Below the pieces are notes generated by a model. The model had not been told where the DNA came from. It made no database searches and saw only the letters and a list, made by a program, of their open reading frames with translations. A stretch of DNA of 64,000 bases from Branchiostoma floridae (lineage: Eukaryota > Chordata > Leptocardii > Amphioxiformes > Branchiostomatidae). Below, in pieces: positions 7,801 to 63,100 of the stretch. The first letter of the stretch is position 1; every line of letters starts with the position of its first letter. The translations under genes were made by a program, and so were the position numbers. Location: positions 19,585,686 to 19,649,685 of the forward strand of contig NC_049979.1 of the NCBI RefSeq assembly GCF_000003815.2. The letters are read 5' to 3'.

Positions 7801-10800
7801 AATCATTCAACTTTGTTAACATCAAGTCAACCTCTATCGTAGCAGATGCAACATNNNNNNNNNNNNNNNNNNNNNNNNNNNNNNNNNNNNNNNNNNNNNN
7901 NNNNNNNNNNNNNNNNNNNNNNNNNNNNNNNNNNNNNNNNNNNNNNNNNNNNNNTCTAGATCTAGCTTAGCCATGCTGACACCTGGCTCTCCAGGTATGG
8001 TACAATACTGTTTCTCATTTACTCTGACTTTTATCATTACAGATCTAATTTACTAGAAATAATGTGAAAACGTATACATTGGAATTACTAATTAGCCGAG
8101 TAACAATATAATTGTATCTTTCACATCTCTAACTTTTTTTGTACATACAATGATATGGAGTACAGTCACTGTACTCCATATCATTTTTCAGTGGTAAATG
8201 ATTTACCACCCGTTGTAGCAGCTCTATTTGTGTCAGACTGTTTTCCTTCCCTTCAGTCATACGTGCCCTATTCTCAGCATGTAACGTCTTTACTTTAGTT
8301 ACAATGTATATATTGGTATTTATGTTTTCAACCAGTCCTAATGCCATGGTTATGCTCAGAGCAACAACATTATATTTGCTCAGAGTAAAAATGTGCACTG
8401 ACTCATCAATGCACTGACTCATCAATGCACTTTCTTTTGTCCACTTTAAATCTGCCAATTTGTGATTGATAATTTTACTTTTAAAAGTTGTATGATTATT
8501 TTCTGTAAACTCATCATCGTATTAATTCTTCTCACCTCAGACAGCTTACCTATGAGTAGGTACCCAACAGCTGCCATTGCAGGTGGAACATCTGCAGCTG
8601 TTATCATCTTCATTGTGGCAGGTGTGGTACTCTTCATCATATGGCGCAGGAAGTTCAAACCAAGGTAAGAACAACATTTGCACTGTTGGCAGGTTTTGTT
8701 ACTAAAAACACAACATGTGTAACTATTCAAAATTGACAGGGAAGTTATCTTGTAGTGTAATCTTACCATTTAGCAGTTACCTAGCAGTTTTATATCTAAA
8801 ATTTTAATGTAAATACAAATTTCTCTTTTCTTTTGCATAGGAATATGGGAAAGCACAAGACCCAAAGGGTAAGTTACAAAGTGAATCTTCAACAATGTTT
8901 TTCAATAGCTATGGAAGACTTAAGCTTTTATATCGCATCAATACAGTCTTCAATGTCCATTTACCAGTATGTAATGTGTACTGTATTTTTTCTGGCCATT
9001 AACATTGGTGTGATGGTCTGTTGCCATTTAGATTAAGATTCAAGTATATTACAATTGTCAACTTTTTAAAAGGTTAAAATTACAAATGACAAAACATTTA
9101 TTTGCCATAGGTGACCATGAGTAGTTTACAGAATGGACACCCCCACCCTACAGAAGAAGGTACAGTGGATAATGAAATATATGCTGGCGATGACGCGGGA
9201 ATCGTGGACAATGTCATCTACGAGGGAGGGGTGGGAGCGGATGGGGTGTTCTCTAACCCTGGATACGCTGACAAGACACCGCAGTTCAAACCACGCATGG
9301 TGAGGAAGTCAAACTTTTGTTTTTTTTGGCATTATTTTTACATACTCTACAGTGCAGAGTACATAATACATAACCATTTGTTAGATGCCAAATGCATGTC
9401 AGGGAAGTTTGCTGTTCAGTCTTGTTTTTTATTCCTTATAACTTGATGTGCAAGTGTGCATACATTGGTCGAATATGTCAAGCAGCAATATCTTGATGTT
9501 CAGGTTAGTTGTCGATAAATAATGTTAGGGAACTGTCCTATGGCATGCCAAGGGAGTAATGTATGACCTACAAGTTATCCTGAGCATGTAAGTTGAATCA
9601 TATAAAACTGAAAACATTCACCATTACTGTTCTCTTTACTGATATTTCTCCCAGTTCTGAAGTGGCACAGTCAGACCCCCAATCTAACTGTACCACCTCT
9701 ATTTGCCCTGTTTTTGTACCCACAGGAACCCACATTCCCCTATAGGACCACATAGCAAGGACTTTGAACTCAGTTGGTAAACATTCCCAGACAACTACAT
9801 GGTGTAGAATAGATCAGGATAGCTCGATCAATTAACTCATCTTAGCACAACAGCTAGCTATTAATGTATTGTAAATACGTTTTAGACTTTTGAGTGGGAT
9901 GTGCATGGTGATAGCACTACTAAAATGCCTGTTACAGTAGCAAGACCGCATACTCGTTTTTGTTTTCTTTACATCTGTGACTTTGATTACATAGCAAAGG
10001 CCAGCTGTCTTGGCATAGCAAATATGTAACTCAAAGCTCACTCTCAGTCATCAGTGTCAACTTTTCATTTACCAAAATATCCCAGTCCCCAACATCCAGT
10101 ATAACTTTCTCAAACAAAGCATGATATTATAATCTCCAAGCAGATGTAAGAATCCTAGGGGGAAGTGAGTTGTTTAAGAAATACAATACCAGAAGAGTAA
10201 CAACATGTACATGATGTACGTTAAGAAAACTACTTCTGTACAGCGTTAACCAGGTTTACAGTAACCGTTACAACATTCCTTATTTCTCATACATCTCAAA
10301 GTAAAACATTTAACAAAATGCACAGATGAAAACAGAACACTAGGACAAAATGAAAAAATATCACTACAAAAATCCATTCCCTAAAACTGTGTTCAATTTA
10401 AGCTATAAACTTTAACTCCATTTACTTCATCCAATTCGGCATTGTTTCTCTTAAATCCAACAACCAACAAATGAAAATGGTGTGTCCGTGTCCTAGTAAT
10501 AGGACCTAATAAAAATTCTGCCATTTATGATAGTAAATACTTTGTTTTTGCTTCTTTCCCAAGGATGCCCCTGGAGCATTTGTACAGCCCAACCCAGGAG
10601 CAACTGACAAGACCCCCCAACCCCAGCGGAACATTATCATCGATGAGCCTCAGTATGCACAGATAGTTGACGACCAGTACGCGGATCCTCAGAAAGTACG
10701 GGAACGCAAGGACAAGAAAAACAAAAAGAAAGCTGCCAAGGATGAAAACTATTCCAACCTAAAAGGGCCACACGAAAGACAGCCGGGTGCAAACAACTCA

Positions 10801-48300: not shown

Positions 48301-51300
48301 TGATGAGGGATCGCAGTCCTCTAGAGCCTGAAGAGGCTGAAGATTTTAGAAATATTACCAAAGGTTTAACAAAGACAATACATTGCAAATAAAATGTCAC
48401 CAACTAAAACTAACAACTGGACCATATATGTTATAACATGAAATGTATAACGTAAAAGATCAGATTATTAGAATTGAATGACAGATGAGTATTCTAAAAG
48501 CAGCTGTAGATATAATTTGAATATTCACCTGTCCATGGAATGTACTCTGGTTCCCTGACACCTGTGTCCACATGGGCCTGGTAAACAAGGTTTTTGGACT
48601 GACGCAGTTTCCTGGCTGCCTGTAACATGGCCTGGAAACAGACAAGAATATCAGTGTACATGTACATATAGTTAACATTTACATTTACATACTAAGTTAG
48701 TACTAACTAGATGCCTACTGCCTATATATGTATGATATACAATGTAGCTCTCTTAAATCATTACTTTTCTCTAATGTGAAAGATGAAAACCTAAAGCTTT
48801 GAAAATAGAAATAAATAGACTAAGAATCAAGCACATGAGAATATGCATAGCTTGTACTAGAGCCTCTATAGTCAGGGTTTGAAATTCATTTTTGGTTATA
48901 GGTGTACTGGGGTGCAACTAGCCTAAAAATATCAGTTTGGCGTTCTGTTCAAACTGTCTTTACCTGCATGATAGTGTTGACATTGGCCATAAGATTGACC
49001 ATATCTCTTGTGGACATGTCTCCAGCCATGGCATCTTCCTCATACTCAACAAGTGCCTCCAGAATGTCCTGGATCCGAGACACCTGTGACAAAAATAGAC
49101 AACAGGCCAAAAACTATGATCATGATACCTAAAGACCACTTCCAATACACAAAATTGCATTTAGTGAAAAAACTGAGGACCGACAGAGCAACAGAACAAT
49201 TTTCATTAATCTGCCAAGTATGGGGCTCAAGATAGATCAATGCTTAGGCCACACCAATTTAATTTCTTGGTTCACGGATTTTTCATAAAAAATATGGAGC
49301 GAGAGGGCGAAATAAAAATAAAAATTGTAAAATGGTTGGGGTAAAGGTCACGGCTAATCCAAAAGATAAAGAAAAAAGTTTTCAGCTTGAAAAAAGTGTA
49401 ACAGCACCTGTACCCACACTTTAAGGAGCTTATAATATAAAGGCCAATTTGCTACACCAGAAAGTTGGTGAATGGTTTCATTAATGGTGAAAATTTGCTG
49501 AGTAGTAATTTTTATTTTTATTTTTTTTTCCCAAAAAATAGGAGCGAGCGAATCCGTGAACCAAGAAATTAAATTGGTGTGGCCTTACTTCTCTGTAGAA
49601 GACATCCTGTGGGGTGAGTCCAGAAGGTGGAACAGCTTGTCCCCTCTGTTGTAAGACTCTCTTGATGGCAGCGTCCACCAGACTCGGATACCTAAGGATC
49701 AAGGATGGTATTCAATTTGCAGCCAACAGGATGTACATTTACGCATATAGCAAGATGATGTAAGACATTTGACCATCAAGCCAGTTGGCAATACATTTGT
49801 ACATGTAACAACTATCAACATACAGCAATACCAAAAAGCATGTCTATGGAGAATACAACACTGTACATTTGTGCATACTATACCAAGGTCCAGTCACATG
49901 GCAGAATTCCTCAAAGAAAATTATAAGGACAATTTCAATGTCTGAATCCAGTATTCGTATTGTTGACAGCACAAATACAAAGCATGTGCAAATTATTCTG
50001 CAGATGCTGTGCAGTATGCCTGTGTATGGGATACTGTAAAAAGGCAGAACCATTTGGAGTGATATTTCCCGGATTCTACAAAAGAATGCCTTACTGGGAG
50101 TGTTGGTTCCTGAGGGTGATGGCAGCCTGGAGTTTCTCAGCGTGTTCACACAGGAGGAGACGTGTAGGCATGAAGGTGTCCCTCACCATCACGGAGGTTA
50201 ACTAGGAGAGCACACAAGATTATGTTCTCTTCTGAAGTTATTTCTCAGGTAACTTTGAAATACAGTTTTTCTTACTAAGAAATATTCCAACATCTTTATT
50301 TTACTTACTGCATATTGACTCTCATTCACTGGCATCAGTAAATTTCTTAGAAAAAAACTGGAGTATTTTGTGTGTACCCTGTCCCAGATGCCCACAGTGT
50401 TGAGGAAGGTGACAAGGTAGTCATGGGCCTTCTGTTTGTCTTCCAGCTGGTGCAGCAGGATCAGAGAGCTGGAGGAGGAGCCAGCATCTGTGCAAACATA
50501 TGTACAACTGTCAATCACACTAGCTGGGGGAGGAGCCATCATCTGTACAAAGATATGAACAACTGTCAATCACACAGACTGGAGGAGCCAGCATCTGTAC
50601 AAACATATGAACAACTGTCAATCAAACTAGCTGGAGGAGGAGCCATCATCTGTACAAAGTTATGAACAACTGTCAATCACACAGTCTGGAGGAGGAGCCA
50701 GCATCTGTGCAAATGTATGAACAACTGTCAATCACACAAGCTGGAGGAGGAGCCAGCATCTGTACAAACACATGAACAACTGTCAATCACACTAGCTGGG
50801 GGAGGAGCCAGCATCTGTACAAAGATATGAACTGTCAATGACACAAACTGGAGGAGGAGCCAATATCTATACAAACATATAACAGGCTCCGCTTTAAGTT
50901 CGGAATTCCACTTTTCCCATTTTGACAAGTGCTAATATTTTCAGTATAAAAGCACCTGGTCCAAAAGTCTTTACATATGATTGACAAGTATGATGAACAG
51001 TTGTAAAATATGACAATAACTTTCATGAATATTCATTTTGAAAATTTTCTTCCTGCAGAACTTTTAAACATCTATCAATCACACAAGGTACAAATACCTG
51101 TCAATCAAACTAGCTTGAGGAGCTACATGTGTAGCAACAATACAGCGGTACAATGACCATCAAGTTAAATACTCCTTTGGCTGTTCAAAAAAGAATTACA
51201 GGCAAATCCAACACCGTAAAATATAAGCTTAATGATCAAAGTGTCAAACAAAATCATTACACATGTTGCGCTCCAAGATTCTCCATTATGGATAGTAAAT

Positions 51301-57300: not shown

Positions 57301-59645
57301 ACATGTATGTTATCATATATACTGCAGATTAGTGACATCCAGATTCACTTTGAATAATGTTTTCTAAACTAAAATTAGAAGTAGAGCATGCTGTCTCTGT
57401 GTAATGTGATTCTCACCTGTCCAGCCACTGATGCTGGTGTTAGCAACAGGAGCTGCCCAGACACTGTGGCAAGGACATATCCCTGGGGCTAGGCAAAAAA
57501 ATATAGAGGAAACACTTGTTAATAGGCAAAATCAACTATGGGACCAGAAAAGGTGGTCACCTTTGCCGGGTAGTCATTATGTAGTGGTTGTGACTTGTAC
57601 AGATATGACTTTTATGGTCTGAAGACAGATATTCTTCAAGTTCAAAGAACGGTCTCACCTGACAGGCTGTCAGACAGAGGCACTCCTCCCCGTTCACTTC
57701 AGCACTGATCTCCACACACGAGCCCTCGTGGGCCAGACTGGGCCAGTAACGGACGATCCCCTCGGCTGAGGCGGCCATGACGGACACGACATGGCCGTCA
57801 CCACTAGGCTGGACACTGACCAGGTCTGCACTGTGGACAAGGTCACTTGGTGGGAGGGACAGTTCCTTACACAGTGCAGACTGAAATACAACATCACAAA
57901 TCATTAGGGACAATTCACTAATGATCCTTTCATGACTGATACATGTGTAAAATGGCTATCCTACATTAGCAAAAAAATCCATAATTTTGTAACTGTAAAT
58001 TCAAATGTCATTCAAAAATCAAACATTTTTATTATAATGCTATGATTTTAATTGATTTTTATGATTATTATAATGTTAAATGCCTTAATAAGTATAACCT
58101 TTGTGATCCCTTGTTTGAAACGCCATATGAAGAGTTTCCTGTCACAGACAAGCCAAGCCCAGCCATTCTCACTCAGGTGAACACTCAGGTCTGTATCTCC
58201 TGTTAGGATAGAAATAACAACTAAAAATCCAGGTATCTATAACAATAGAACAGTAAACAAATAACTAAAGAAACAGTAAACACCATTCACTTCTTTAAGA
58301 ACAAGTCTGTATGATCTGTGAGCAGAATTGAAACTGTTTGATTGTTAATGAATACATGTCAAACAGGTTACATGTTGTATGCATCATTATATTCATTCTA
58401 CAAATCATTCATAAAGAATTGTGTGTGTCTCTTATTCTCTACAATTTTTCCTATTACAACAGAAATGTTAACATTTCCTGGTTACATGATGTATATCAAC
58501 AAGGCAAAATAAACAACAAAATGACTAGCAAGTGTGAGAAGCTTTATGGTAGACTAATTGATTGATGAATGATTGATTGATTGATTGACATAAAAAAATT
58601 TGACTAAATACATGTGATATAACTATAAACTGACTGTCAGCCAGTGATTAGTTTATGAAAGACTTGCTGGTTGATGGATTCATTTATATCAATGTATGAC
58701 TAAATGAATATAAAATGACTGACGGCCAGTGTGAGGTCCCTGTGAGTCTGTGATTGACTCTTTAACAATACCAATGGGTTCATAATTACATCACTGTCTG
58801 TCAGTGAGAATGCCTCTATGATTGCTCGATTTATTGCTCAATGGATTGATTGATTGAATTATTGATTGATTGATTGAAGTTGATTGAATGAGTAGGTAAG
58901 TCTAAACTGACTGTCTGCCAGTGTGAGCGCCTCCGTGACGAGGACAGGTAGAGATGACCCATAACTCTGCACCACGTGGCCGGTGGTCTCCTCTAGAATG
59001 GACGAGGTATTCAGGCTCCGGTTCTGGGCTGGGCTTCTGGATAAATGACAACAAAAAATGATGTATGGTTGATGAATGTTCATTGTCAGACATTTGCGAC
59101 ATATCTACCCTTCCAGCACTGAGGGTCATTACACTTGAACACAACTTGCAAAGAACACAAATAACTGTCTTAGTTCACCTTACATTATAAGTACTTGTTA
59201 CATGTACTATCACTAGTAGTAGTTATGATAACAAGCAAGAAAGTGACAACCACAAAATGTGGAAACTGTTATGATCTATCAAACCATAAAACGTCACCCG
59301 ATCTGACAAACTCTTGTCAAGGGTGAAACATAAAACAAAACAGGAAATATTCTGAAGCAAAAAGACGTTTACCGATGCTAGTAGCTTTCAGTCTACTATT
59401 TGATAAAACCTTGAGGCAAAAGTCATATCTTGTGGAAACTTGGGGAGGGAGGGCGAAGAGTACATGTGCTTCATCTGTGGCAAATTATCTCCCACTACAA
59501 CAACTTACCTTCCCACAAAAGGTGACCTCTTGCCCGGAGTAAAGATCCCAACACTCCGTCTGCCCGAAGGGGTGTTTCTGGTCACCCTCCCGGCCGTGAA
59601 GGGTGAGAATTTGGGCCGAGTCGCCTGACTTCTTGGGGTAAACAT
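42314..59645 (-). CDS. NUP133: Nuclear pore complex protein Nup133
   Basis: Outer-ring (Y-complex) nucleoporin: N-terminal beta-propeller, C-terminal helical stack. Thirty-six coding exons, all in phase, give 1149 residues (human 1156): 59509-59645, 58912-59036, 58099-58199, 57659-57880, 57417-57488, 57009-57128, 56480-56523, 56165-56231, 55911-55970, 55479-55549, 55182-55252, 54895-54974, 54537-54639, 52762-52830, 52407-52485, 52205-52247, 51892-51989, 51431-51600, 50378-50487, 50095-50201, 49589-49691, 48964-49083, 48529-48631, 48293-48336, 47564-47774, 46343-46476, 45876-45915, 45578-45696, 44843-44902, 44537-44612, 44222-44283, 43713-43769, 43519-43599, 43245-43306, 42877-42962, 42314-42456. 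Landmarks: [117 protein letters not shown]. Introns after 52205 and 51892 start with GC (GCAAGT). Start Met at 59645 gives a basic, Ser/Thr/Pro-rich N-terminus as in the family. Confidence 0.97.
45030..45375. repeat. Diverged tandem repeats with CTGTCCTTGGTGCTGAA
   Basis: The word CTGTCCTTGGTSCTGAA followed by AACAnnATnCA recurs near 45041, 45163 and 45338, with a partial copy near 45218, giving a period of roughly 120-175 bases. Lies in the NUP133 intron between the exons at 45578 and 44902. Confidence 0.6.
46101..46299. mobile_element. 199-bp TIR element (TACTG ends)
   Basis: Left end TACTGCAAATGCAGAAATG; the reverse complement of the right end reads TACTGTAAATGCATTTAAG. Both continue into TTCRCAGKGG. 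The interior is unusually rich in CG words (TTCGCGGTGACCACTGCACC, CCGCGAAAAG). A TA target is possible. Non-coding, in a NUP133 intron. Confidence 0.65.
46841..47418 (+). mobile_element. Internally deleted mariner element, 578 bp
   Basis: Flanked by TA on both sides. TIRs of 34 bp (46841-46874 and 47385-47418, beginning CGAGGGGCGTGCAAT) differ at one base. Inside, a frame from 47024 encodes the mariner transposase N-terminal helix-turn-helix region ([39 protein letters not shown]). It then jumps, in another frame, to what looks like the C-terminal tail ([15 protein letters not shown]). The catalytic DDD domain is missing, so the copy is non-autonomous. Sits in the NUP133 intron between the exons at 47564 and 46476. 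Confidence 0.93.
49247..49584. mobile_element. Harbinger-like MITE, 338 bp, abutting a splice donor
   Basis: Flanked by TTA at 49244-49246 and 49585-49587. The 34-bp TIRs are perfect (GGCCACACCAATTTAATTTC... , ending ...CACGGATT). A 3-bp TTA duplication and GG-starting TIRs fit PIF/Harbinger MITEs. In the orientation of NUP133 the element starts at the fifth base of the intron, so the donor G-TAA uses the target duplication. A related end, GGTCACACCAATCTAACTTC, occurs at about 6782. Confidence 0.85.
50468..50885. repeat. ~54-bp minisatellite repeating a NUP133 splice acceptor
   Basis: About eight units of 51-57 bases with the core GGAGGAGGAGCCAGCATCTG then TACAAACATATGAACAACTG and TCAATCACAC. 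The leftmost unit contains the real 3' splice site and first codons of the exon 50378-50487. In transcription order, seven copies of the acceptor (..TGTACAG|ATGATGGCTCC) precede the real one. Confidence 0.9.
52831..54536. other. Large NUP133 intron with SINE and GC-rich stretch
   Basis: The intron between exons 54537-54639 and 52762-52830. Apart from the SINE at 53911-54430 it holds a CpG-containing stretch (53070-53400) with ATATAAAAATGGCGGGAAAATG at about 53338. No protein-coding support. Confidence 0.4.
53911..54430 (+). mobile_element. tRNA-derived SINE, 520 bp
   Basis: Flanked by TGATCTCC at 53903-53910 and 54431-54438. The tRNA-like head has an A box (TGGCGCAGTGG) and a perfect B box (GGTTCGAATCC). 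The body contains GTGCCCTTGGGAAAGGTACT, GAGTACCTGGCTTCGGCTGG and GGACGTTAAATGGAGGTCCC. The tail is GAATGAATGAATGATGAATA, a tandem-tetranucleotide 3' end typical of LINE-mobilised SINEs. Shares head-to-body sequence with the minus-strand copy at 41060-41383. Confidence 0.9.
58555..58935. repeat. ATTG-rich region repeating the NUP133 exon 2 donor
   Basis: Runs of GATT/GATTGATTG alternate with diverged copies of the exon 2 end and donor. The word CTGACTGTCWGCCAGTG is at 58630-58646 and at the true exon edge (58907-58923); variants ATGACTGACGGCCAGTGTGA (58716) and CTGTCTGTCAGTGAGAATGC (58794) lie between. All but the true copy are intronic. Confidence 0.65.
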
Positions 59646-60157
59646 TTTATTTCGCCAGACAGTCAAATTCGGCGGGATGCACCACACTGCATACAAACGC
59701 GACTCTATAGGCTTCAAATTAATTAAACAAAATACAATAATTCAAAAGCACGATTTAAAATAAAACTAATTTGTAAAAAATATTGATGTCTTATTTATGT
59801 ACAAATAAATTTGTTCAGAGAGTTCTAGAAAGAAATGAATAAAAGGGAAATTCTACATTTTGATACCATCTGGGTGATTACAGTAAAATAAAGGGAGCAT
59901 TACATTTACTATAAAAGTGCTAAGAAAATATCATTTATTGTAAATGGACGTATTTGCATCAATATTGATACATATATTATGTCTAATGATATATTTTCAT
60001 TTTTACTGGCTATCTGAGCAATACATGCTTACGTTCTATCATTCAGTCAACCCTTTAATATAATGTATTCTACCAGGTCAAAGGTTACAAAAGCGGTGCG
60101 GAATTTCGCTCACAATTTTTCAGCTGCGTTTTTTAGTTCCTCAAAATCATTTCCACC
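59646..60157. promoter_or_regulatory. Shared NUP133/ZNRD2 promoter interval
   Basis: 512 bases separate the start codons of the two divergent genes. Mostly AT-rich; no TATA box is placed convincingly for either. The bidirectional role is inferred from geometry only. Confidence 0.5.
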
Positions 60158-63100
60158 ATGAACTCCCATGATATCGGTAAGTACTGTTTTGAAGTTATAA
60201 CATAAGAGCTTCAGCATCAACCTTATAAGTGTTTGGCAAGGTTGTGTGTGATTCTGAACTGATGATATGAAGAAATTTGAAGTTCTCTCCCAGAGGCCAG
60301 ACCATGTGTCCGACAAATAGAATTTCATGTACGCTGTGGCTATTGACACACTCAGTGTGCCAATAGCCAAACAGGCTATTGACACACCGAGATGCCAGCC
60401 AGCCAATCAGAGCTTGTAACATGACTTTCCGACGCAAGTATACAAAAGGAACGGGTTCCGCACTGGTGTTCCAGTGCTAAATCAATGGGTCGAATCGGCC
60501 TCAGCACTGGTTTTCCAGTGCTGAAGAAACGTCAGCACTGGTTTTCCATTGCTGAACGGCCTTGTTCGAGTGCTGAAGCTCCCTCAGCACTGGAATTCCA
60601 GTGCTGAACCCAATGCGAGCACTGGATTTCCAGTGCTGAACTTCTCTGAGCACTGGTTTTCCAGTGCTGAACTGCCGTCAGCACTCGGGTACCAGTGCTG
60701 AACTCGCGGCAGAGGTCATTCAGCACTGGTTACCCAGTGCTGAAACCGCCGTCAGCACTGGAACCGAGTGCTGATATACAAAAGTAACGGGTTCAGCACT
60801 GGATTTACCAGTGCTCGGGAACTTTTCAGCACTGGAAGACCAGTGCTGTAAAAACTTCAGCTCTGGGCTTCCAGTGCTGACGTTTATAAAGCACTGGAAC
60901 GTTCCAGTGCTGAACGTAATATTCGTGTACTAGTAGCATGCGTCCGTACGGCTGTCAGTTATTTCCTTTAGACTTAGGTATATCTATGCGTGTTATTTAA
61001 TCTCCAAGCAGATCTTGCGTGGCACTAGCTTTTACTAGCTTTAGACTAGAGTAGACACTTGTGATATTGTTAATTGTGTATGCAGTTAATGGCACTCAAG
61101 TTTCTTTTCTTTTGGTCAATTGATACAAAAATTTTAAATGAACAAATCACATATTCTATACTTGTGGCAAAGTAGTGTCTTTTTAGTCAGAGGTAGACAA
61201 CTAACAGTTGGTCTATCTGTGTGGTAAAAAGATCGCTTGTTTTTTTTTTTTTTACAAAGAATAGGTAGTTACAGGTGGACGACACATTCTGCTGGGTGTG
61301 CCAATAGCCTCGCTCATCATTAATGTATGTTGTGAAACCATCACCACTGTCACTATCATTCTATCTTTCTGTGTAGACACCAAGTACTAATGTGCTAACA
61401 CCTCTCTTTGGACAATGATTGTAGCACCGCTCTAGGTGATAAATTTCTAAATTCTGACTCATGCTTAGAGGTCAGACTGACACAAACAAAAACACTGTTA
61501 TTCATAATCATACAGTTTACTCTGGCCTGTTACTTTTAGTATAGAATTCCATTGCTTCAAGCAGGTGTTGGGTGGGACCAAACTGTTGTGTATTCCTTTC
61601 AAAATATTTATCCTCCCCAATCTCTGCTTTGAGATAGCATACATGCCCCTCACCTATACATGTTTGATGGGAGCGGGGGTATGAGCCTGTGCGCATCAGG
61701 TCATCCCTACTATTCTCAATATAAAAGTGTGTTGGATTATTTTCGTACAGGTTTGACATTATGAGACTGGCTTCCCCGTACACAGAACCAAATGATCACT
61801 TCTGACATGATGTTTCCTTTTTATTTTTAACTACCAGACCCAGATGATTATGATTGGCAGCCGCCATCAGAGGCTGACTTGAAGGTGATCGAGGCACGTC
61901 GTGAACGTAACGACCAGATCAGTAAGCGGATGGGAGACTATCTCCTGAAGGGGTGGAAGATGCTGGGTACAAACTGTGAGGAGTGTGGGGTGAGTATTCT
62001 GATGTCCTAATGCTACATAATGGTTCAATACATCAGGGGATTTTCTCAAGAGGAAATGAAAGGGGGTGCTGCACACTCATGCTCTAACTACACTACCACC
62101 TTACCCAGAGCAGATTCTCTGAAAAGCTAGTAGGTCACATGTGGCCATATGTGTCCTCAATTATGACCGCTCTTATTGTAAGAAGCCATACAAATTACAA
62201 TACTGGGGAAGGGGCCAAATTTACACCATCCCCCCACTCCCTTGCACTTCCATACAATTCTTTTTTTACAAAAAAAACCTCTAATATACTACCTGGGCAT
62301 AATGTCAGTGATTAATCAAATTTCTTCCTGAATAGTTGAGTTTTGTTTCATAATTACAATCACAGATACCAATGTACATAACTCATCTGTATATTTACCA
62401 TATCTGTTCCCTGTAGTGTATTCTGCTGAGGGACAAGCAGGGAGCTGACTACTGTGTTGCCTGTAATGAACTTGAATCTGATCATGACAAGGATAATCCA
62501 GGTGAGGAGATAATGGCCTTTGTGCTGTACTGTCTGTGTTTGTTTATTTTTGTAGTCACATAGTCTGTGCTAGTGTTAAATTGACATTGTATTGGAGTTT
62601 AGCTTGTCTTAGACTTATAATTTTGCAATTCTCTGGCATTTTGTCAAGTCTCTTGACTTGACAAATTGCCAGAGAAAGGCAAAAGGTCATATGCAAATTT
62701 TGAGTCTCAAACTAAAATATTCAGATTTCCAAAAACTTTGCCCTGAACCTACAGTATTGAATGTATGTTATGCATACATTACTTTTCTGGCAATGCCAGC
62801 ATTTGTAGAGTGGAAAAAAGAGACAAAGGAAAGGGCTTCAGACTTCTCAAGAAGTTTTTATCATGATTTTAAGCAAACTTCTTGGAATTTTTCTTGATCC
62901 AGCGGTGAATGAGGAGGCAGCTAGAGGACTGCATCGAGAGGCCCAGTATGCCACAGCAGCCAAGGACCTGGCTTCCTCTTCACAAGAACATGTCATCAAC
63001 CATGTGGCCTCACCGCCAAGAAACGTCACCCAGCAGGAAGATACCGTGCCAAGGAACAGACTCGTTTCGGCAAATCCAATAGCCGTTGTGTCCAGCGCGC

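Follow-up and report, generated by a model that had tools for sequence, protein, structure and literature searches.

Arrays of at least a dozen strong palindromic sites, set about three helical turns apart, are familiar from viral replicons, and similar arrays of palindromic sites are also found in engineered operator arrays. DNA transposons (CACTA and others) carry subterminal repeat arrays, in which a short motif occurs in both orientations with variable spacers. Two described systems come closest to the locus studied here. According to PMC2374998, the gypsy (mdg4) insulator of Drosophila packs 12 Su(Hw) sites into 340 bp; these share a consensus and are surrounded by the AT-rich DNA of a transposable element. 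The family of repeats in oriP of EBV is described in PMC3218044 as 29–32 tandem 30-bp units, each of about three helical turns and with a palindromic core. The open-licence literature on amphioxus and on similar arrays, as far as its partial texts extend, yielded no such array, which is no claim of absence from print; the texts of two amphioxus papers (PMC12500494, PMC9673378) contain neither 'palindrom' nor 'tandem repeat'.

Here we describe a real palindrome array, composed of 13 dyads and one lone half-site, at 60458–60912 of the window (the whole 64-kb stretch of DNA that was analysed), in intron 1 of ZNRD2.

Genomic context

The array is flanked by two coding segments of ZNRD2:

60158..60176, plus strand: coding part of ZNRD2 exon 1, from the ATG at 60158 to a GTAAGT donor at 60177
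61838..61989, plus strand: ZNRD2 exon 2, preceded by a pyrimidine-rich acceptor, its end set at a GTGAGT donor

Exon 1 joins exon 2 (at 61838) in frame, and exons 2 and 3, joined roughly by hand, match the Pfam family PF06677 (Auto_anti-p27, E=2.6e-14); Pfam gave no match for the C-terminal piece of ZNRD2 or for the NUP133 piece. The neighbouring exon on the minus strand matches Nup133 chains (E=8e-13). The array thus begins about 0.3 kb and ends about 0.75 kb past the ZNRD2 start codon, and lies, judged by eye, about 0.8–1.3 kb from the presumed start codon of NUP133. Its placement inside ZNRD2 intron 1, as proposed in the preliminary description, is sound.

A separate feature touches the NUP133-like gene. 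A 55-bp tandem repeat of about 7.7 copies on the minus strand (50460–50884) runs into the start of an exon that, by eye, reads as NUP133-like, and most of its units carry a stretch like TTTGTACAG followed immediately by ATG(C/A)TGGCTCCTCC. The repeat resembles a series of 3' splice acceptors that were duplicated, each with the start of an exon.

Architecture of the palindrome array

Exact CAGCACTGG/CCAGTGCTG half-sites occur 16 times across the 64-kb window, against 0.42 expected by shuffling, and all 16 lie within 60502–60912; exact dyads number four, against none in 100 shuffles. When at most one mismatch is allowed, the array contains 13 left and 14 right arms, or 27 half-sites (16 of them exact, the other 11 with a single mismatch), which alternate left-right-left-right with a single break, the lone right half at 60567. 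The dyad consensus is TTCAGCACTGG-N4-CCAGTGCTGAA, and the dyads, which have no strand of their own, are as follows:

60458..60479, no strand: dyad 1, one deviation in each arm, at different positions
60502..60523, no strand: dyad 2, both arms canonical, loop TTTT
60533..60554, no strand: dyad 3, one deviation, in the right arm
60567..60575, minus strand: lone right half-site, inferred centre 21 bp (2 turns) from dyad 3
60585..60606, no strand: dyad 4, both arms canonical, AATT centre
60617..60638, no strand: dyad 5
60648..60669, no strand: dyad 6
60679..60700, no strand: dyad 7
60721..60742, no strand: dyad 8, both arms canonical
60753..60773, no strand: dyad 9, 3-nt centre
60794..60816, no strand: dyad 10, 5-nt centre
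60827..60848, no strand: dyad 11, both arms canonical
60858..60879, no strand: dyad 12
60889..60912, no strand: dyad 13, 6-nt centre, AACGTT

The place of the array and a mean dyad spacing of about 33 bp agree with the earlier account, while its count of about fourteen units becomes 13 full dyads and a half. The palindromes had also been called perfect, which does not hold, as both arms are canonical in only 4 of the 13 dyads. Loops and spacers had been described as changing. This is true of their sequence, and much less so of their length: the centre is 4 nt long in 10 of the 13 dyads (3, 5 and 6 nt in the remaining three), and the gap from a right arm to the next left arm is 9–10 nt in 9 of 12 cases and 20–22 nt in the other three. 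Spacers therefore vary far more in sequence than in length, and the dyad symmetry with a largely fixed centre length is that of a homotypic cluster of dyad sites.

Outside the array, the rest of the 64-kb window contains no exact half-site, 17 half-sites with up to one mismatch, and no second array. Profile matches there are at chance level (29, compared with 24–42 in five Markov-simulated windows), and the best dyad scores 14.6, compared with maxima of 11.5–16.1 in the same simulations. These values bear on the possibility that a self-mobile miniature palindrome inserted repeatedly into neighbouring sites. Near-identical arms separated by unrelated sequence are what such insertions would leave behind, but the surroundings show no excess of copies, and the longest direct repeats flanking the units measure only 0–2 bp in 12 of 13 cases and 5 bp in one. 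We regard this origin as extremely improbable.

Conservation of arms and divergence of spacers

The arms are far better conserved between units than the sequence around them. Pairwise identity is 634/702 for left arms and 655/702 for right arms (90–93%), compared with 122/468 (26%) over six spacer positions; the 4-nt centres of 10 units are intermediate (76/180), being T-rich with 0.24–1.08 bits per column. Information content is accordingly higher in the 18 arm columns than in the 12 spacer columns (Mann-Whitney P=1.6e-6), so that the earlier statement that the arms are conserved while the rest drifts is borne out, and the motif stands above its spacers as in a homotypic cluster of dyad sites. 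In addition, the 12 inter-unit spacer cores, taken together, show no greater similarity than shuffled versions of themselves (summed score −432, null mean −417, P=0.886, 500 shuffles). An ordinary minisatellite (VNTR), in which spacers would be shared, was rejected on this ground, as the preliminary description had anticipated. Since neutral drift after duplication of a unit would have led to equal divergence of arms and spacers, the arms were either kept by something or made separately. Taken together, well-conserved arms and shuffle-like spacers indicate conserved motifs in freely drifting DNA.

Eleven arm changes were found in total, ten of them in full units and the eleventh in the lone half-site. 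They affect 9 of the 13 dyads, and in none of these nine is the change compensated by the partner arm, although ten changes make a small sample. The half-site had been proposed as the conserved element, its partner often staying intact, and the pattern of changes agrees with this.

The same pattern bears on two further explanations. In the first, the array is a functionless palindromic minisatellite, the arms of which (and not the spacers) were homogenised by hairpin-mediated template switching during replication. In its favour, Tandem Repeats Finder detects tandem repetition with a 31-bp period and 70% matches at 60501–60703, a 28-bp segment has been copied within the array, and the single strand of the array has an extremely strong DNA fold (z=−18.8). 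However, template switching should copy a change in one arm into its partner, which is seen in none of the nine changed units (again a small sample), and the 12 spacers between units show no trace of common descent. Such a minisatellite also leaves unexplained why the units are spaced by 2, 3 or 4 helical turns, as described below, and we consider it quite unlikely.

In the second, the transcript of the intron would form RNA hairpins, acting as a source of small RNAs, an editing target or a structural RNA. The predicted fold of the transcript is strong (−283 kcal/mol, z=−19.2), but good folding is trivial in this case, as any array of inverted repeats folds well, and RNA pairing would favour compensatory changes, of which the nine affected units have none. 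Between 59500 and 62000, Rfam gave no match at gathering score; the six matches (E up to 1) were all below it. Moreover, phasing by helical turns belongs to double-stranded DNA and has no evident reason in RNA, and a role as RNA hairpins appears very improbable.

Helical register of the dyads

Successive centres of the dyads, including the lone half-site placed by its inferred centre, are 44, 31, 21, 31, 32, 31, 31, 42, 31.5, 42, 32.5, 31 and 32 bp apart, i.e., 2, 3 or 4 helical turns. Measured against multiples of 10.5, twelve of these 13 distances deviate by at most 1 bp and the remaining one, 44, by 2 bp; the mean deviation is 0.5 bp. In an open scan from 4 to 40 bp, the best period was 10.50 bp with a vector strength of 0.947, which stays at or above 0.92 whichever single interval is dropped. 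Scanned separately from 9 to 12.5 bp, left arms peak at 10.50 bp (0.940) and right arms also at 10.50 bp (0.919).

Because the repeated intervals of 31–32 bp could have a common origin, they were held fixed in the significance tests, and only the atypical intervals were randomised. This gave P=0.0019 for 13 centres (four intervals drawn from 34–56 bp, 20,000 draws) and P=0.0047 for 14 centres (four intervals drawn from 18–56 bp, 50,000 draws), values that are carried by the four intervals differing from 31–32 bp and obtained with a period fitted to the same data. The evidence that the dyads are in register with the 10.5-bp helix of DNA is therefore good, though not overwhelming. The helical period of nucleosomal DNA is 10.2 bp, at which the vector strength is only 0.10 (13 centres), and the phase of the dyads thus fits free DNA.

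The preliminary description had left three options for the array, namely sites for a dimeric protein, RNA hairpins and a self-inserting palindrome. The 10.5-bp phase, together with the uncompensated arm changes, favours sites of a dimeric protein on double-stranded DNA over RNA hairpins. The self-inserting palindrome is likewise disfavoured, as the units lack clear flanking duplications, the window holds no excess of copies, and repeated insertion does not predict helical spacing.

Base composition, nearby repeats and a possible mobile origin

The GC content is 0.52 in the array, 0.48 in the 120 bp to its left and 0.48 in the 46 bp to its right, compared with 0.36–0.40 in the rest of the intron. 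We also considered whether the spacers are GC-rich overall and dropped this, since the pooled bases outside the arms have a GC content of 37%, which does not exceed that of the window (P=0.80); only the cores of the spacers, after trimming, reach 53% (110 bases). CpGs touching non-arm bases number 14. Matched samples drawn at random from the window average 5.05 (P=0.0018), and the base content of the non-arm bases themselves predicts 7.2; the test is post hoc, devised once the sequence was seen. The observed/expected CpG ratio of the whole array (0.58, window 0.53) is ordinary because the arms hold no CpG. The richness of non-arm bases in CpG would fit an unmethylated, protected element occupied by protein. 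Directly right of the array, at 60915–60960, the CpG ratio is 1.92 (5 CpGs in 46 bases), and it is 0.36 over the next 440 bases.

Two kinds of repeat occur in and beside the array:

60439..60466, plus strand: copy 1 of a 28-bp direct repeat, a spacer-like stretch plus a left arm
60775..60802, plus strand: copy 2 of the 28-bp direct repeat, 26/28 identical, 336 bp (32 x 10.5) from copy 1
60338..60387, no strand: palindromes of a separate family, GGCTATTGACACAC / GTGTGCCAATAGCC, immediately left of the array

The direct repeat consists of TATACAAAAG-N-AACGGGTTC plus the left arm. A 336-base higher-order repeat had been claimed at this distance; however, beyond the 28-bp copies the register is lost and loops and spacers cannot be aligned, and the repeat is a local copy event without a 336-bp unit. 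The second palindrome is unrelated to those of the array. It has the form GGCTATTGACACAC-TCA-GTGTGCCAATAGCC with CCAAT-box-like letters inside, its GGCTATTGACACAC copies lie at 60338 and 60374, and the inverse, with one mismatch, is found about 0.9 kb to the right, at 61296–61309. Elsewhere in the window, isolated perfect palindromes are present at 8149–8185 (18-bp arms, 1-base centre) and at 1004–1031 (28 bp without a centre, TCTATCCTAAAAGCGCTTTTAGGATAGA).

An elevated GC content in array and flanks, and a 14-bp inverted repeat (GGCTATTGACACAC / GTGTGCCAATAGCC, one mismatch) that brackets the array (60338 or 60374; 61309), would be in line with another origin for the same architecture. It might be a remnant of a mobile element or virus stranded in the intron, i.e., an array of sites for a transposase or a replication protein, of which the arms were kept by past selection on the element rather than on the host gene. 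Helical phasing would suit a transposition or replication complex as well. However, in the search for termini (12-base arms with at most one mismatch, left arm at 58501–60457 and right arm at 60914–63000), flush target-site duplications were 0–2 bp long at every terminus pair listed. The bracketing 14-bp pair stands among many other listed pairs, which look like chance. The window holds a single array, rather than one for each end of an element. Viral contigs gave three stretches and no array: one stretch with one dyad and two with one site each in the right-to-left arrangement, all taken as chance. Prokaryote contigs gave six stretches with one dyad each, and since about four are expected by chance in 257 billion bases, these were taken as chance, too. 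The bracketing repeats keep a mobile-element origin alive without supporting it, and on balance we hold such an origin to be rather unlikely.

A putative array of dimer-binding sites

Conserved inverted half-sites, a fixed centre, random spacers that are quantised in helical turns, and the lack of compensation together make the dyads candidate protein sites on double-stranded DNA. We hypothesize that the array is a homotypic cluster of about 14 dyad-symmetric sites, each of which would consist of two inverted 11-bp half-sites (TTCAGCACTGG) flanking a 4-bp centre and might bind the same sequence-specific protein as a dimer. With dyads spaced by whole turns, the dimers would share one face of the DNA and might contact each other, allowing cooperation along the array. 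As a guess, a multi-zinc-finger protein with a BTB-type dimerisation domain would suit a half-site of 11 bp.

Given the proximity of the array to a divergent gene pair, the most likely role would be in the cis regulation of NUP133 and ZNRD2, as an enhancer, silencer or insulator acting on a promoter that presumably lies between them. We give about even chances to the model in which a dimeric protein binds the dyads cooperatively along one face, its likeliest output being the transcriptional regulation of NUP133/ZNRD2. Animal enhancers are not usually known to have as many as thirteen strong 26-bp sites, and by this measure a mobile-element origin is equally conceivable.

A bolder form of the dimer-binding array is that of an operator array occurring naturally in an animal, in which a dedicated dimeric protein would polymerise along the 13–14 dyads in strict 10.5-bp register and form a filament or scaffold free of nucleosomes, next to a divergent housekeeping promoter, with selection on the arms so strong that the spacers have become fully randomised. 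We judge this form unlikely. More generally, an array of a dozen or more such sites in an animal intron would reveal a new protein with an architectural or regulatory role, and the length of the motif suffices for its protein to be isolated directly. The combination of a conserved motif with randomised, turn-quantised spacers separates arrays of this kind from minisatellites, and the spacing statistic could therefore serve as a cheap genome-wide screen for them.

Comparison with known systems

Tandem palindromic minisatellites resemble the array in their period of about 31 bp and their head-to-tail units, from which it differs by its unrelated spacers. In the layout of its motif, it is also like the subterminal arrays of CACTA-type transposons, but it has no target-duplicated terminal repeats and no second array in the window. 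The left half of the RE1/NRSF site is TTCAGCACC, and its first eight bases, TTCAGCAC, coincide with the motif of the array; as this half does not form a dyad in RE1, we take the coincidence as a lead only.

Two systems are closer. The EBV family of repeats shares units of about three turns with palindromic cores, and EBNA1 binds as a dimer; it differs in being a viral maintenance element, the 12-bp core of which, TAGCATATGCTA, is unlike the motif found here. The gypsy insulator packs its 12 binding sites for one zinc-finger protein tightly together under a common consensus. However, that consensus is not an inverted dyad, whereas the present array consists of 26-bp dyads with another motif, in regular helical register and in a host intron. 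Our best reading, by analogy, is that this phased array near NUP133/ZNRD2 would work in the manner of the gypsy insulator or of the EBV repeat family while being a member of neither, as its motif and setting differ from both.
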